This document shows positions 13,776 through 19,646 of a DNA stretch of 55,844 nt, piece after piece. The notes beneath the pieces are model-generated. The model made no database searches, had not been told where the DNA came from, and saw nothing but the letters and a program-made list of their open reading frames with translations. A program made the position numbers and the translations under genes. The DNA is from Acidimicrobiia bacterium (lineage in GTDB: Bacteria > Actinomycetota > Acidimicrobiia > IMCC26256 > DASPTH01), in the NCBI GenBank assembly GCA_040880805.1, contig JBBDHW010000056.1:1-55844 (forward strand). The letters run 5' to 3'. Each line of letters opens with the position of its first letter. The stretch's first letter is position 1.

Positions 13776-14282
13776 ATGAGCGTCCTGATCCGTCTCGCCG
13801 AACGGCGTGACGCGGCGGGGATTCGGGCCATCTACAACCACTACGTCACCGAGTCGACCGCGCTCTTCGACATGGTGCCGCGCACCCTCGACGAACAAGT
13901 GCAGTGGATCGACGAGCACTCGGGAGGCCATCCGGCCTTGGTGGCCGTCGCTCGCGGTGAGGACGGCACCAACCGCGTGGTGGGCTTCGGGTCACTGTCG
14001 CCGTTCCGGTCGCGGCCGGCGTACACCACCACGGTGGAGAACTCGGTGTACCTGCTCGAGGAGTACCAAGGTCGCGGTGTCGGGCGCATGGTCCTCGAGG
14101 AGCTGATCCGGCTCGCCGAGTTGCACGGGTTCCATTCCGTGATCGCGCGCATCGCCGGTAGCAACGACGCGTCGATCGCGCTGCACGCCGCGTGCGGGTT
14201 CGAGCTCGTGGGGACCGAGCGCGAGGTCGGTCGCAAGTTCGGCCGTTGGCTCGACGTGGTGGAGATGCAGCGACTTCTGTAG
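13776..14282 (+). CDS. GNAT family N-acetyltransferase (PAT/MnaT-like)
   Basis: A 168-residue acetyltransferase resembling phosphinothricin/L-methionine-sulfoximine acetyltransferases. The N-terminal motif IRLAERRDAAGIRAIYNHYV is followed by the acetyl-CoA loop QGRGVGRMVLEELIRLAE and a C-terminal GSNDASIALHAACGFELVG. The ATG at 13776 is chosen over an upstream GTG at 13734 because it lies six bases after a TACCGT box and matches where family members begin. It is a single gene, convergent with the FtsH-like gene. The substrate cannot be read from sequence; small amine or methionine analogues are typical. Confidence 0.82.
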   Translation: MSVLIRLAERRDAAGIRAIYNHYVTESTALFDMVPRTLDEQVQWIDEHSGGHPALVAVARGEDGTNRVVGFGSLSPFRSRPAYTTTVENSVYLLEEYQGRGVGRMVLEELIRLAELHGFHSVIARIAGSNDASIALHAACGFELVGTEREVGRKFGRWLDVVEMQRLL

Positions 14283-14292
14283 GCGGACGCGG

Positions 14293-14379
14293 CGACCAGA
14301 GCGACGGAGGAGCGGAGGTCGCTCGCCAGCGAGCAAACGGCCGCGAGCCGGGTATCCCGGCTCGCAGAGAGCGAGCGAA
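14293..14379 (-). repeat. dispersed intergenic palindromic element, copy B
   Basis: An inverted copy of the element at 10290-10370. The core palindrome lies at 14343-14365, followed on the minus strand by CGTTTGCTCGCTGGCGAGCG. It fills the gap between two convergent genes, so it could terminate or buffer transcription from both sides. Confidence 0.8.
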
Positions 14380-16884
14380 TTATGCAGGCTCGTCGTCTTC
14401 GGAACCGTTGTTGGCCTTGAGCAACTGGCTCGTGCCCGGGCCGATGATCGCCTCTCCCTCGTGGTCGACGAACGCCGGCTGCTTGGAACCGTTCTCCGCG
14501 TCGACGACGGGAACATCGGGTGTCTGACCGTTCCCGCTCCCGTTCGCAGAAACCGGCTCGACGGCACTTCGGAGCGTCTGACGCTCGGGCGGCTCGAACT
14601 CCACGCGCTGCGTGCCCTCCTGGTGCGCGAGGAGCATCCGCTCGTGGTACTGGTCGATCTCGCCGACGAACTCAGGGTCGAGGTAAACGGTGCCGTCGAC
14701 GACCGTGCCCATCCGCTGCTCGATCACCGCGACCACGTCTTCGCCGGCCAGTGTCTTCTGCTCCTCGAGCGCGTGGGCAACCCGGAGGATCGTGTCGCGC
14801 TCGCGCTCGATGAGCGTGTGCGTGCGACGCAGCAGACGGTTGAGGTTGTCCTCGACGCGCTGTCCCATGCTCCCGCTGAGGAGCTCCTTGTTGAGATCGC
14901 CCGGCTTCTGCGTGGGGCCGCCGCCACCGACGCCGGCGCGCTGGATGATCGCGTGCGACGCGATCGTGGAGCCCATGCCCCAGAAACCCTCCATGAGGAT
15001 CGCGATCTCGGTTGCCTGCTCGAGGTCGCCGGACACACCGGACGCGCTGTCGCCGGCGAAGAAGATGCGCTCGCCGGCGAGCGACGCGAGGCACACCATG
15101 ATGTCGGACTCGAACTCCGTCTTGAAGAGCTTCTGGCGGTCCTCGATCGGGACCGACGCGACGAGCCCGAGGTAGTCGGTGCCGGGGTGGATGGTGGCCA
15201 TGTCGATCTCGAGGTGCTTGCGGACGCGGTACGCAACCACTGCGTGACAGGCCTCGTGCACCGCGACCCCGTGGCGGTCGACGGCGATCAGCTCCTGGTC
15301 GCGCGTGAGCCCGAGGGTCTTGAGGTGCTTTGCGTCGAGCACGTCGGTCCAGGTGATCATGTCGCGGTTGTCCTGGATCGCGTTGATGAGCGCCTCGTTG
15401 ACGAGGTCCTTGATCGACGCGCCGGTCGCGTACGGGGTCATGTGGGACAGCCGGTCGACCTGTTCCGCGGTGAGGTCGTGCTCGACCTTGGCGAGGTAGC
15501 CCTCGTAGGTGCGGACACGACCCTGGTTGGTGGGGTATCCCACGCGATAGATGCGGTCGATGCGGCCCGGACGCAGCAACGCCTGGTCGAGCGACTGCGG
15601 CATGTTGGTAGCCATCATGATGAGCATGCGGTACTTCGGGGGCGGCTTCGACTTCAGCCCGAACAGCTTCCGGACGTAGCGGTTGATGATCCCACGCGGC
15701 TTGTTGAGGCCTGACAGCTCGGTGAGGAGCACGGGGAGGACCGACCCACCCATCCCGCCGCCCATGCCCATCATGAAACGCGAGCGCGTGGTGTCGGGAC
15801 CAGTCGGCGGGTCGTGGTGGTGATGCGCGCCGATCGCGCCGTCCATGAGGTGCTGGCGCGTGACGTCGGACAGATATCCGAATCCTCCGCACGAGCACAT
15901 CCCGGAGAACAACGAGTCCTGCGCGCGCGGCGCCTGGCCCGCGAGCTCACCTCGGCTGCCGAGCGCGTCGGCCTCGTCGAAGAAGGCGACCACGCCCCCG
16001 TAGCGGAGCGCGAGGCGGCGAAGACGGCGGAAGAGCATCTTCACCTTGATCACGCCCATGCCCATCGTGTTGAGCTGGCTGGCGTCGATGTTCACGAACG
16101 GCTTGCCGGTCTCGCCCGCCATCGCCTCGGCCATGAGCGTCTTGCCGGTACCGGGCGGACCCCACAGGAGCAGGCCGCTCGGCACGTAGCCGCCCTTCTC
16201 CTCGATCATCTTGGGGTTGTCGAGGAAGATGAGATTCTCCTTCACCTTCTCGAGGACGGGATCCTGACCCCACACGTCGGAGAACCGAGTGTTGATGTCG
16301 TCGGGGTAGAACGTCTCGACGCCGCCCCTCGTCGCGAACCAGATCATGAGACCGAACTGGAACCCGATCCAGAACGTGAGGAACAGCACCAACTGGAGCG
16401 CCGTCGGTGTGACGCCGATGACGAAGTCGAGCAACTCGTAGGGCGCACGAAAGAAGTTGGTGTCGAAGAGCCGCGCCAACACGAGGTTGAGGACCACGAG
16501 GACCGTGACGATCTTGATCGTGCGCGCGGCCTGGTGGCGCTTCCACGGGTCGAACCTCGAGATGCTCTCGTTCCAACCCGCGAAGACCTTGTCGCGCCAG
16601 AGCTGGTAGTAGGAGGCGCTGTGCTCGCAGATCAGGTAGTGGATCTGGCGGATGAGCTCCAGGCCCATCAGGGCGAGGATCCACCACTTCCCGCGCGCCG
16701 TCATGTTGAACGCCTCGGACGCCGGAAGGAGCGGGTCGTCGGCCATCTCGGCCGCGAAGAAGAACGCGAAGAGCGCACCACCCCAGAACAGGAACTTGAT
16801 GCGGTTCCAGAACGACATCGGCTTGCGCGTCGCGCGTTCGCTCTCGCGCGGACGGCTCTCGAACTCGGTCGCGACTTGTGTCAT
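14380..16884 (-). CDS. divergent FtsH-type membrane AAA+ zinc metalloprotease
   Basis: An 834-residue protein combining an AAA+ ATPase with an M41 peptidase. Four hydrophobic segments (about 29-46, 66-80, 121-140, 160-184) replace the two of canonical FtsH. Walker A GPPGTGKT is at 242-249, pore loop LNTMGMGV at 271-278, Walker B FFDEADA near 301-307, and arginine fingers in RPGRIDR at 438-444. The zinc site HEACH is at 543-547. Between Walker B and the second region of homology is an unusual insert (about 311-380) with CSCGG, four consecutive His and a MGMGGGMGG stretch. The C-terminus is a long low-complexity tail. The ATG lies one base after the lipoprotein stop, so the two are coupled. Confidence 0.85.
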   Translation of the reverse strand: MTQVATEFESRPRESERATRKPMSFWNRIKFLFWGGALFAFFFAAEMADDPLLPASEAFNMTARGKWWILALMGLELIRQIHYLICEHSASYYQLWRDKVFAGWNESISRFDPWKRHQAARTIKIVTVLVVLNLVLARLFDTNFFRAPYELLDFVIGVTPTALQLVLFLTFWIGFQFGLMIWFATRGGVETFYPDDINTRFSDVWGQDPVLEKVKENLIFLDNPKMIEEKGGYVPSGLLLWGPPGTGKTLMAEAMAGETGKPFVNIDASQLNTMGMGVIKVKMLFRRLRRLALRYGGVVAFFDEADALGSRGELAGQAPRAQDSLFSGMCSCGGFGYLSDVTRQHLMDGAIGAHHHHDPPTGPDTTRSRFMMGMGGGMGGSVLPVLLTELSGLNKPRGIINRYVRKLFGLKSKPPPKYRMLIMMATNMPQSLDQALLRPGRIDRIYRVGYPTNQGRVRTYEGYLAKVEHDLTAEQVDRLSHMTPYATGASIKDLVNEALINAIQDNRDMITWTDVLDAKHLKTLGLTRDQELIAVDRHGVAVHEACHAVVAYRVRKHLEIDMATIHPGTDYLGLVASVPIEDRQKLFKTEFESDIMVCLASLAGERIFFAGDSASGVSGDLEQATEIAILMEGFWGMGSTIASHAIIQRAGVGGGGPTQKPGDLNKELLSGSMGQRVEDNLNRLLRRTHTLIERERDTILRVAHALEEQKTLAGEDVVAVIEQRMGTVVDGTVYLDPEFVGEIDQYHERMLLAHQEGTQRVEFEPPERQTLRSAVEPVSANGSGNGQTPDVPVVDAENGSKQPAFVDHEGEAIIGPGTSQLLKANNGSEDDEPA

Positions 16885-16885
16885 G

Positions 16886-17533
16886 TCACTTGTCCTTCAC
16901 CGTCCACGAGTTGATGACGCTGTCGATCTTCGACTCGTACTTGTCGTAACACTCGGTTGTGCAGTAGATGCTGATCGCGTACACCTTCGACGTCGACTGG
17001 TCGAAGAGCGCGATCTGATTGAAGGTGATGGAGCTGGTCTTGCCCTCGACGCGGGCAACCAGGTGTGAGCCGTGGAAGCCGCCGCCGAGCTCCACGAGGT
17101 CGTAGGCCGACACGTGCGCGTTCCCGGCCTCCAGGGCGTCGTCGACGTCGAAGAAGATGTTGCGCAGCGACTGGAGCGACGCGGCGTCGGAAGCATCGGG
17201 CGAGAGGGGCCGGACGACTGCCTGGCCGAGCGGATAGTTCGGGCGGTTGCCCGCGAGATGGTTGAGCGACGGGTCGGGGTTGGCGTCGAAGACCGTGGTC
17301 CACATGGTGTCTCGGCGCTGGTCGATCTCGTCCTTGGAGAGCGCCCCCTTCAGGGCGTCGAGCACGGAGTCCTGGTCGTAGAGCTTCCAGCTGTCGGGCA
17401 CCTTGAAGTAGGTCTTGTTCTCGGAGCTCTTGACGTAGTGATACCCGGTGCCGGCGCAGGCCGCGAAGGCGAGTGGCGCCGCGAGGAGAAGCAGTGCAGT
17501 CGCGGAGCGCGCCCTCCCCAGGCCTCCCGTCAT
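16886..17533 (-). CDS. secreted lipoprotein coupled to the FtsH-like protease
   Basis: A 215-residue lipoprotein of unknown function. The signal peptide ends in a lipobox (LAFAAC), and the mature part starts CAGTGYHYVKSSENKTYF. The rest is a compact soluble domain with a C-terminal pair of Cys (IYCTTECYDKYE), loosely resembling LpqN-like or PsbP-like folds. The ATG at 17533 is preferred over GTG 17539 because a GATACT box ends seven bases upstream, suggesting a leaderless or nearly leaderless message. The TGA and the next ATG are separated by one base, so the lipoprotein may be a partner or substrate adaptor of the protease. That role is inference. Confidence 0.7.
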   Translation of the reverse strand: MTGGLGRARSATALLLLAAPLAFAACAGTGYHYVKSSENKTYFKVPDSWKLYDQDSVLDALKGALSKDEIDQRRDTMWTTVFDANPDPSLNHLAGNRPNYPLGQAVVRPLSPDASDAASLQSLRNIFFDVDDALEAGNAHVSAYDLVELGGGFHGSHLVARVEGKTSSITFNQIALFDQSTSKVYAISIYCTTECYDKYESKIDSVINSWTVKDK

Positions 17534-17596
17534 ACCCACCAGTATCGACCAGATCAGGGGTGGTCGGTAGTCCGAATGTGGTGTGGAGGCGTCACG

Positions 17597-17626
17597 GAAA
17601 AGAAAGGAGGCCCGCCGAGGCGGGCC
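17597..17626 (-). terminator. intrinsic terminator after tRNA-Tyr
   Basis: A perfect eight-pair stem (17626-17619 with 17616-17609, two-base loop) of GGCCCGCC/GGCGGGCC is followed on the minus strand by TCCTTTCTTTTCC. It begins three bases after the tRNA-Tyr 3' end and separates the tRNA from the lipoprotein/protease operon. Confidence 0.75.
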
Positions 17627-17628
17627 AG

Positions 17629-17709
17629 TGGGCCGGGTTGGATTCGAACCAACGTAGGTTTCCCAGCAGTTTTACAGACTGCTCCCTTTGGCCACTCGGG
17701 TACCGACCC
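17629..17709 (-). tRNA. tRNA-Tyr (GUA anticodon)
   Basis: An 81-base class II tRNA on the minus strand: acceptor GGGTCGG/CCGGCCC, anticodon stem GCAGT/ACTGC with loop CTGTAAA (GTA), a long variable arm, and T-arm GTTGGTTCGAATCCAAC. The discriminator is A and CCA is not encoded. A TACTGT box 11 bases upstream may be its -10. Confidence 0.95.
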
Positions 17710-17740
17710 AGGGGGGGCGTACAGTACCAGCCCCAAATAA

Positions 17741-17830
17741 TTCGTCGCTCACTGCGAGCGGGTATCCCCGGCTCGCGGTCGTTCGCTCCTGGCGAGCACT
17801 CGACTCGCTCCGCTCGCTCGTGCCGCAGGT
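17741..17830 (+). repeat. dispersed intergenic palindromic element, copy C
   Basis: A slightly decayed copy on the plus strand between the divergent tRNA-Tyr and YajQ genes. The core 17754-17776 reads GCGAGCGGGTATCCCCGGCT with mismatches. It is followed by CGGTCGTTCGCTCCTGGCGA and GACTCGCTCCGCTCGCTCG, the same order of blocks as copies A and B. Confidence 0.7.
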
Positions 17831-18377: not shown

Positions 18378-19646
18378 CTACGGGCCGAGGACGGTGGCGA
18401 GCCCCCCGGCCATCGTCTCGAGGTTGGCAGACGGCGTATCGCCGAGGGGCAGGGTCACCCCGACCGGGAGCTGCATGAACGTGAACGCGCCGCGACTTCC
18501 CGCGGTGAGGGCCGCGATCGCGGTGGTCCCGATCTGCAGGCCGTCCGGACCGTTCAACGTCGAGATATAGAAGACGTCCCGAACTCCGAGCTTCTTCGCT
18601 CCGATCGTCGCCGAACCACGCTTGGGCACGCGCTCGACGTCAACGCTGGAACCGGCAGGAAGACTCGCGAGATAGAGGTCGTGGAGACAGGTCCCGAGGT
18701 TGCTGTAGTCGCCGAACCAGTGGCCGGCCGTCCCCTTCGTCGGGAACACGATGATCTCGGCACCGACGGTGGTCCGCGTCGCGGGGTCCTGTGCCCGGAA
18801 GCCCCTGATCACGCCGTTCGTGCCCGAGGAGAGGAACGCGTCGGTCGCGGCCCGGCAGGCCGCCGGGTTCGCGGGTACCACCGAACGCGGGGATGGTTGG
18901 AACACAAAGGGGTTCGCGGTCGGGGCCCATTCGATGAAGCGCTTCGCCCCTTCGTCGGCGTCCTTGGCGAGCTTCGGGTTCGACGCTTCGAACTTCCACG
19001 CCAGCAGGCGATAGCGCAAGCTCGCCCACGCCTGCCGCTCGAGCTCCTCCAGCTCGCCGGGCTTCGCGTTCGCGACGCGAGCCGTGGCCTCGGCGACAAG
19101 ATTGTCCCAGGTGAGCAAGGCAGCGGCACCGGCCAACGGGGCGGCAGCACTCGTGCTTTCGAACGTCGTGGCCCAGACGCCGTCGTCATTGGAGACCGCT
19201 GACGCGAAGGTCGGAGGTGGCGGCAGCTGCGCGTACTGCACGAACACACTGTTGATCGCGTCGCGCGCGCCGTAGCCGAGGCACGCGGCGGACGATCGCG
19301 CCGTCGTCACGAAGTTCCTGGCCGCCTTCGCGTTCGGGAACACGTGGATCCGCTCGTTCACGACGATCCGCCCGTCGCTCGTCCCGAGTAGCACGCCGTT
19401 CCCCGACGACGGGCCTTTCGCGAGCGCGGCGTCGACCTCGGCGGCACGAGGGCAGCTCCCCTTCAGCGCGTCCGTGTACAGGGGTTGCGCGTCGCGGGCC
19501 GTGAACGCCACGAACGGGGTGCGGGCGTACGTTCCCGCCGTCAAGTACGCGTCGGGCGGGACCGCTGCGCCGGGATCGACCGCGCCTGCCGGTACCGCGG
19601 CCGTCAGCGCAAGTGCGGTGGTCGCGACGACGAAGGGTCGAAGCAC
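18378..19646 (-). CDS. secreted protein of unknown function
   Basis: A 422-residue protein with a signal peptide (LRPFVVATTALALTAAVPAG, cleavage probably after AGA near residue 22). I do not recognise the mature domain. It shows two similar halves: each has a segment with paired cysteines and an IVVNERIHVFPNAKAARNF-like or EIIVFPTKGTAGHWFGDY-like motif. This suggests an internal duplication resembling sensor-like lipoproteins of actinobacteria. The GTG start at 19646 lies exactly six bases after a TAGGGT box, so the message is probably leaderless. It follows htpX by 21 bases on the same strand. Confidence 0.65.
   Translation of the reverse strand: MLRPFVVATTALALTAAVPAGAVDPGAAVPPDAYLTAGTYARTPFVAFTARDAQPLYTDALKGSCPRAAEVDAALAKGPSSGNGVLLGTSDGRIVVNERIHVFPNAKAARNFVTTARSSAACLGYGARDAINSVFVQYAQLPPPPTFASAVSNDDGVWATTFESTSAAAPLAGAAALLTWDNLVAEATARVANAKPGELEELERQAWASLRYRLLAWKFEASNPKLAKDADEGAKRFIEWAPTANPFVFQPSPRSVVPANPAACRAATDAFLSSGTNGVIRGFRAQDPATRTTVGAEIIVFPTKGTAGHWFGDYSNLGTCLHDLYLASLPAGSSVDVERVPKRGSATIGAKKLGVRDVFYISTLNGPDGLQIGTTAIAALTAGSRGAFTFMQLPVGVTLPLGDTPSANLETMAGGLATVLGP

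Follow-up and report, generated by a model that had tools for sequence, protein, structure and literature searches.

How does an FtsH-like protease with no extracytoplasmic part of its own deal with proteins at the outer face of the membrane? The question is raised by a gene pair of an Acidimicrobiia bacterium (assembly GCA_040880805.1, contig JBBDHW010000056.1), which lies within the 55,844-nucleotide stretch of DNA that we analysed, here called the window (positions 1 to 55,844, forward strand). The pair encodes a predicted lipoprotein with a PsbP/Mog1/LpqN fold (16886–17533 from an ATG start) and, directly behind it, an FtsH-like AAA+/M41 membrane protease of 834 amino acids (14380–16884); both genes are on the minus strand, as are all parts of them located below by window position. 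Because the periplasmic domain of FtsH is missing from the protease and the lipoprotein is inherited in its place, we infer that the lipoprotein acts as an outer adaptor or sensor, and we put the probability at about one half that this is a specialised membrane protease, predicted to be active, whose extracytoplasmic adaptor function is carried by a separate lipoprotein. An FtsH side branch would thus have lost its outer part, and the co-inherited lipoprotein could fill that role in many lineages of one phylum.

A membrane protease without the outer domain of FtsH

The protease gives Pfam matches to AAA (3.3e-22), Peptidase_M41 (4e-23) and AAA_lid_3 (9.5e-07), passes the gathering score of Peptidase_M41 (PF01434, 82.7 bits versus 29.9), and finds its closest solved structures among FtsH chains, yet it scores 234 bits with the FtsH equivalog model TIGR01241, far under the curated cut-off of 600. 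The membrane domain (residues 25–186, 16327–16812) is predicted to comprise four long helices, at residues 25–49, 67–88, 113–139 and 147–186 (model mean predicted local distance difference test, pLDDT, 73.6), and only short connections between them could lie outside the membrane. The extracytoplasmic domain FtsH_ext (PF06480) gave no match in this protein at E<=0.1, whereas it is present (2.7e-12 and 6.7e-12) in both canonical FtsH proteins of the same genome, encoded on contigs C49 and C59. In an alignment of 37 sequences, W68, E76, Q80, H82 and E87 of the membrane domain are invariant. Charged and polar residues in the second membrane helix form a pattern, E..RQ.H....E (residues 76–87, 16624–16659), that is conserved better than the Cys/His insert described below. 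Patterns for this helix and for the linker between membrane and AAA domains matched 76 and 58 of 92 family members, respectively, which are undercounts, caused in part by truncated rows or one-residue variation, and not counts of absence.

The catalytic elements are retained. The Walker A motif GPPGTGKT (residues 242–249, 16138–16161), the Walker B motif ..FFDEAD (299–306, 15967–15990, with D303, E304 and D306), sensor-1 N427, R441, R444, the residues H543, E544 and H547 of the zinc-site HEXXH motif, here HEACH (543–547, 15244–15258), and D620 (15025–15027) are all invariant in the same 37 sequences. D620 aligns with the Asp of the FtsH 'NDL' motif, which we take to be the third zinc ligand. 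The Cys inside the zinc motif marks the family, HE[AG]CH being found in 91 of 92 members (87 distinct), with HEASH in L142 as the exception (L numbers denote loci). Because these ATPase and zinc-site motifs are invariant, an ATP-dependent zinc protease, predicted to be active, is the default reading; of all such motifs checked, the window protein has lost only the Phe of pore loop 1. An earlier first-pass annotation, made from this sequence by itself, had proposed a divergent FtsH-like protease with a full AAA+ and HEXXH core, four N-terminal membrane segments and a lipoprotein gene ending one base ahead of it, and had suggested a search for a canonical FtsH elsewhere in the genome. Each of these descriptions agrees with the results given here, the membrane segments as predicted helices, and the search returned the two canonical copies named above.

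Inheritance of the lipoprotein gene with the protease gene

A single base (C) separates the TGA of the lipoprotein gene from the ATG of the protease gene. In a profile search the lipoprotein adjoins the protease in 84 of 91 actinobacterial loci, the profile having been built with several of those same loci included. Of the remaining seven, five stop short of the upstream region, L089 is a 184-residue fragment, and L096 is an intact exception. Searched on its own (phmmer, E<=0.01), the window lipoprotein has a homologue in 78 loci, its own among them. Since the profile contains several of the loci on which it was tested, the informative control is the absence of the lipoprotein from genomes that do not have the protease: among 41 genomes of the same order, not independent in that two pairs share a family or genus, protease and lipoprotein occur in the same five, own genome included, and the lipoprotein occurs in none of the other 36. 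The coupling put forward in the first-pass annotation, which absence of the lipoprotein beside most orthologues would have refuted, is therefore borne out.

Across the phylum the protease was found in 11 of 296 sampled genomes, again counting its own, while canonical FtsH was present in 41 of 41 sampled genomes; the protease is an accessory paralogue of patchy distribution. Eight of the ten other protease-carrying genomes in the phylum sample also have the lipoprotein (seven by profile), L094 is cut by a contig end, and L096 is again the exception. The other neighbours vary, but the pairing is kept in records of Acidimicrobiia and in Frankia, Pseudonocardia, Micromonosporaceae and Streptosporangiaceae. 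When neighbouring open reading frames were clustered, the group holding the lipoprotein was represented in 69 loci and the next group in 21; a wider conserved gene cluster was thereby ruled out, only the lipoprotein being common to most loci. The distance between the two genes runs from −25 to +224 nucleotides and is often a 4-nucleotide overlap (the start could be assigned in 69 of 76 cases). L046, from an Acidimicrobiia record, has a gap of 573 nucleotides that is filled by a second lipoprotein copy, the tandem copies ahead of its protease lying at 800–1441 and 1294–2013. In G060, the genome of L096, the PsbP-fold protein is replaced upstream by a 388-residue lipoprotein-like protein (L141, 4264–5430) that appears by eye to have PDZ-like and TPR-like parts. 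The plasmid collection gave a single match, an 11.85-Mb Nonomuraea record (NZ_LT559118.1, H1), the size of which suggests a chromosome filed among plasmids.

Upstream of the pair in the window lie a terminator-like stem (17609–17626) and a tRNA-Tyr gene (17628–17709), and no match to a sigma-70-type promoter was found within 14200–17800.

Predicted structure of the lipoprotein

The lipoprotein open reading frame (16886–17539) begins with GTG and has an in-frame ATG at 17533. A predicted helix (residues 9–26) precedes the lipobox Cys, which is residue 28 when numbering starts at the GTG (17456–17458). This residue is Cys in 77 of 77 aligned sequences and is preceded at −1 by Gly, Ala or Ser in all 77; with signal peptide and lipobox both recognisable, the protein is predicted to be lipidated. 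A CxxxC pair is formed by Cys193 and Cys197, kept in 73 and 72 of the 77 sequences, respectively. This alignment leaves out the window copy and the duplicate L077.

No Pfam or NCBIfam model matched the lipoprotein above its cut-off, PsbP_2 (PF18933) coming to 13.3 bits against 27, and its assignment therefore rests on the fold. The model has a pLDDT of 92.6, describing a compact, high-confidence domain, and its matches include CyanoP/PsbP (2xb3; Foldseek 4e-7; Z 14.6, root-mean-square deviation 4.0 over 150 aligned residues) and LpqN (6e5d; Z 11.6, root-mean-square deviation 3.6 over 144 residues), along with DcrB, Mog1 and the Eag chaperones. Identity to these fold relatives is low, about 6–17% over the aligned parts, and the predicted fold indicates no particular function. 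The outer domain of PknH also appears low in the fold list (Z 6.0). Separately, a 422-residue open reading frame near the module (18378–19646) has a weak PknH_C match of 18.2 bits, below the cut-off of 27.

Two insertions around pore loop 2

Between Walker B and sensor 1 the window protein has 105 residues, compared with 28 in Aquifex FtsH. The first-pass annotation had read this region as one insert of about 70 residues. The CSCGG, the HHHH and the Met/Gly run that it listed are present, but the 77 extra residues form two insertions rather than one block, one of about 56 residues at the base of pore loop 2 and one of about 21 residues after the inter-subunit signalling motif.

The first insertion (residues 313–370, 15775–15948) contains CSCGG and HHHH and varies in length, most of all in Frankia. 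Across 76 aligned sequences, conservation of at least 95% is reached only at C332, G334 and Y337, with C332 (15889–15891, in the context C[HN]G.SYLS) being Cys in 75 of the 76. At position 330 Cys does not rank within the five most frequent residues, nor does His at positions 345, 355 and 356; His is found in 3 of 57 sequences at position 354 and in 1 of 5 at position 357. Residues 314–336 and 351–378 of the model have pLDDT below 50. The annotation had supposed that the insert binds metal and gates the ATPase, and had asked whether insert and lipoprotein recur together in homologues. The lipoprotein does recur, as described above, but CSCGG and the His run are not family features, so that this half of the annotation falls to the refuting condition set in it, homologues in which the insert is not conserved; a metal-binding insert was discarded as a candidate on its conservation and predicted disorder. 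The alignment drew on 89 loci with a match, 12 of which were set aside, namely the window's own copy (L001), the genome's two canonical FtsH (L002–L005), L091, L087, the fragment L089, the split matches L070, L078 and L084, and the duplicate L077; two more, containing X, were also left out.

Pore loop 2 (residues 371–381, 15742–15774), which reads GGGHDEREQ in canonical FtsH, is here the Met/Gly run, and both the relatives and the Chloroflexota family described below are rich in Met at this place. The 22 residues before the signalling motif contain on average 2.5 Met and 8 Gly in the family and no Met in the parsed canonical rows, and the window protein combines this run with SGL as its signalling motif, as against HDEREQ and DGF in canonical rows. 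The second insertion follows this motif (residues 394–419, 15628–15705). With this insertion, 30 residues separate the signalling motif from sensor 1 in all 80 actinobacterial relatives that could be parsed, as opposed to 9 in all 13 canonical proteins that could. Parsing failed for 10 of 90 actinobacterial rows and for 5 of 18 canonical ones, and the long maxima (433 and 250) are mis-parses. The sequence of the insertion, SGLKKPRG and then NR..RR.LGM.PKPPPKYR, is among the best-conserved stretches of the protein. At the level of sequence, the conserved novelty is this second, basic insertion, which the first-pass annotation had merged with the other.

Pore loop 1 (residues 271–278, 16051–16074) is two residues shorter in the window protein than in most relatives. 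The aromatic form MF[VM]GVG is absent from this protein and its two nearest relatives, L008 and L009, and retained by nearly all other relatives, with one further altered loop in the family set. L008 and L009 belong to the same order and have it too, which rules out a sequencing error in a single genome as the source of the loss. As a trait of the whole family the loss was ruled out, since the alignment has MF.GVG in most relatives.

A related family in Chloroflexota

A genome-scan match in Kouleothrix (L087, Chloroflexota) led to a second family, relatives of L087 being present in 57 of 151 genomes searched. The scan used peptide patterns that included MMGMGGGM, a string that L087 contains, and the pore loop of this match was probably selected by the search, the remaining features not. 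In the 20 Chloroflexota loci examined (the 19 best fetched, and L087), pore loop 2 is again Met/Gly-rich, with a mean of 4.0 Met, and 28–29 residues separate the signalling motif from sensor 1 in all 20; the long Cys insert is lacking. Hydropathy indicates two closely spaced N-terminal helices in most of these loci, and FtsH_ext gave no match in L087, the member that was checked. In 7 of the 20, the upstream gene encodes a single-pass membrane protein whose outer domain is small. A second Chloroflexota copy (G423:C107:11376-13130) has three in-frame stops and is probably a decaying duplicate.

In a tree of 61 core sequences the actinobacterial, Chloroflexota and canonical groups each have support of 100/99 or 100/100; the tree is unrooted, the sole outgroup candidate parsed being too distant, and six canonical rows were lost to the Walker A pattern. 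Because the insertion after the signalling motif is shared, a common origin of the actinobacterial and Chloroflexota groups is suggested. Examples of both groups also deviate from the canonical sequence in the membrane-to-AAA linker, which in Pseudomonas is described as setting FtsH activity (excerpts of PMC10850787).

Discussion

The window protease is like FtsH in its AAA+ ring motifs, lid, M41 domain, HEXXH with the aligned Asp, and membrane anchor, and differs in having no FtsH_ext, four predicted helices, two insertions, SGL for DGF, and an altered linker. HflKC, which are SPFH proteins, differ from the present case in that HflK docks on the FtsH periplasmic domain that is missing here, the partner here being a PsbP-fold lipoprotein. 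The likeness is that a separate membrane partner acts with FtsH from outside the membrane, and the part consulted of PMC12067869 places the E. coli contact with HflK on the periplasmic domain and describes FtsH as a hexameric ring that threads membrane and soluble proteins into a zinc-protease chamber. The rhomboid YqgP is described as an FtsH adaptor in PMC7231995 (excerpt). A pore-loop-2 insertion is also found in the mitochondrial m-AAA protease AFG3L2, where according to the available text of PMC12994072 it engages substrate and four residues already alter engagement; a Phe stands at the centre of that four-residue insertion, in contrast to about 56 residues and a Met/Gly tip here. For Eag proteins, stabilisation or recognition of effector transmembrane domains is reported (PMC7773334 and PMC12881460, in part). 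In the portion consulted of a review of Streptomyces AAA+ proteases (PMC9775585), FtsH is given two transmembrane regions and a lipoprotein is not mentioned, and our searches of open-access papers gave no title or abstract beginning that deals with the protease subfamily or the pairing. The components belong to known superfamilies. We know of no PsbP/CyanoP, LpqN, DcrB, Mog1 or Eag chaperone that is paired with an AAA+ protease.

We propose that the lipoprotein, tethered at the outer face of the membrane, would touch the hexamer at its membrane helices or its short outer loops and may serve there as adaptor or sensor, presenting membrane proteins or exported proteins to the protease. The component that FtsH has built in, and to which HflK binds in E. 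coli, would in this case come in trans. The changes in pore loop 2 and the signalling motif lie in elements that grip substrate and relay nucleotide state between subunits, and the Met/Gly loop with its long flexible base, together with the fixed basic insertion, may tune grip and subunit communication toward a narrower substrate set, while the canonical FtsH copies would keep housekeeping proteolysis. Contact, direction of regulation, substrates and activity are thus derived from sequence, distribution and predicted folds. For the proposed adaptor we count the retained motifs of the protease, the FtsH_ext that both canonical copies of the genome have and that gave no match here, the pairing of the genes, the lipobox, the PsbP fold that the lipoprotein shares with Eag chaperones, and the single-pass neighbours in 7 Chloroflexota loci. 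Several observations weigh against this proposal. Gene coupling is by itself no proof of contact, the lipoprotein could equally be a substrate, and the PsbP fold serves many functions; the intact member L096 carries a different lipoprotein-like gene upstream, and 13 of the 20 Chloroflexota loci have no such single-pass partner within about 1.4 kb. The window protein itself is without the pore-loop-1 Phe that most relatives keep, and its proteolysis is a prediction.

Strict pairing would be expected of a cognate substrate or inhibitor as well, and several immunity (inhibitor) proteins have the fold of the lipoprotein, which might then be a dedicated substrate or regulator of the protease, for instance a surplus or mislocalised precursor that is degraded, rather than its adaptor. 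We consider this unlikely: a membrane protease retained for one neighbour alone would be unusual, and the lipoprotein is predicted to be a compact domain with no obvious cytosolic tail. That the two genes are merely co-transcribed, their products belonging to one envelope pathway without contact, is quite unlikely given that the pairing persists across actinobacterial lineages while other neighbours change. The altered pore, and the presence of chloroplast FtsHi motor chains, which are non-proteolytic relatives, among the best fold matches of the protease, would suit an ATP-driven extractor or chaperone of membrane proteins with little proteolysis, but HEXXH and the aligned Asp are kept across the family, and such a role appears distinctly improbable. 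A metal-binding insert that gates the ATPase is highly improbable, even though CSCGG and HHHH are truly present and C332 is near-invariant, as the other Cys and all the His are unconserved, the insert is predicted to be disordered, and the Chloroflexota family has no comparable Cys insert.

Returning to the proposal of an adaptor lipoprotein, we extend it tentatively to both phyla: a deep, unnamed M41 branch across Actinomycetota and Chloroflexota may have given up its built-in extracytoplasmic domain, relying instead on interchangeable anchored proteins that supply the function in trans, and may drive its substrates by a remodelled Met/Gly pore loop 2 and an element added next to the inter-subunit signalling motif. 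The interchangeable partners would be the PsbP-fold lipoprotein, in one case another lipoprotein-like protein, and in part of Chloroflexota the single-pass protein with its small domain. How FtsH chooses substrates outside the membrane is little understood, one reason being that sensing domain and motor are joined in one protein. If the proposal is true, nature has provided a system in which adaptor and protease could be examined apart, the adaptor being a lipoprotein of its own. The pore changes common to the two phyla are also a natural test of how unfolding power is set by pore loop 2 and by signalling between subunits.

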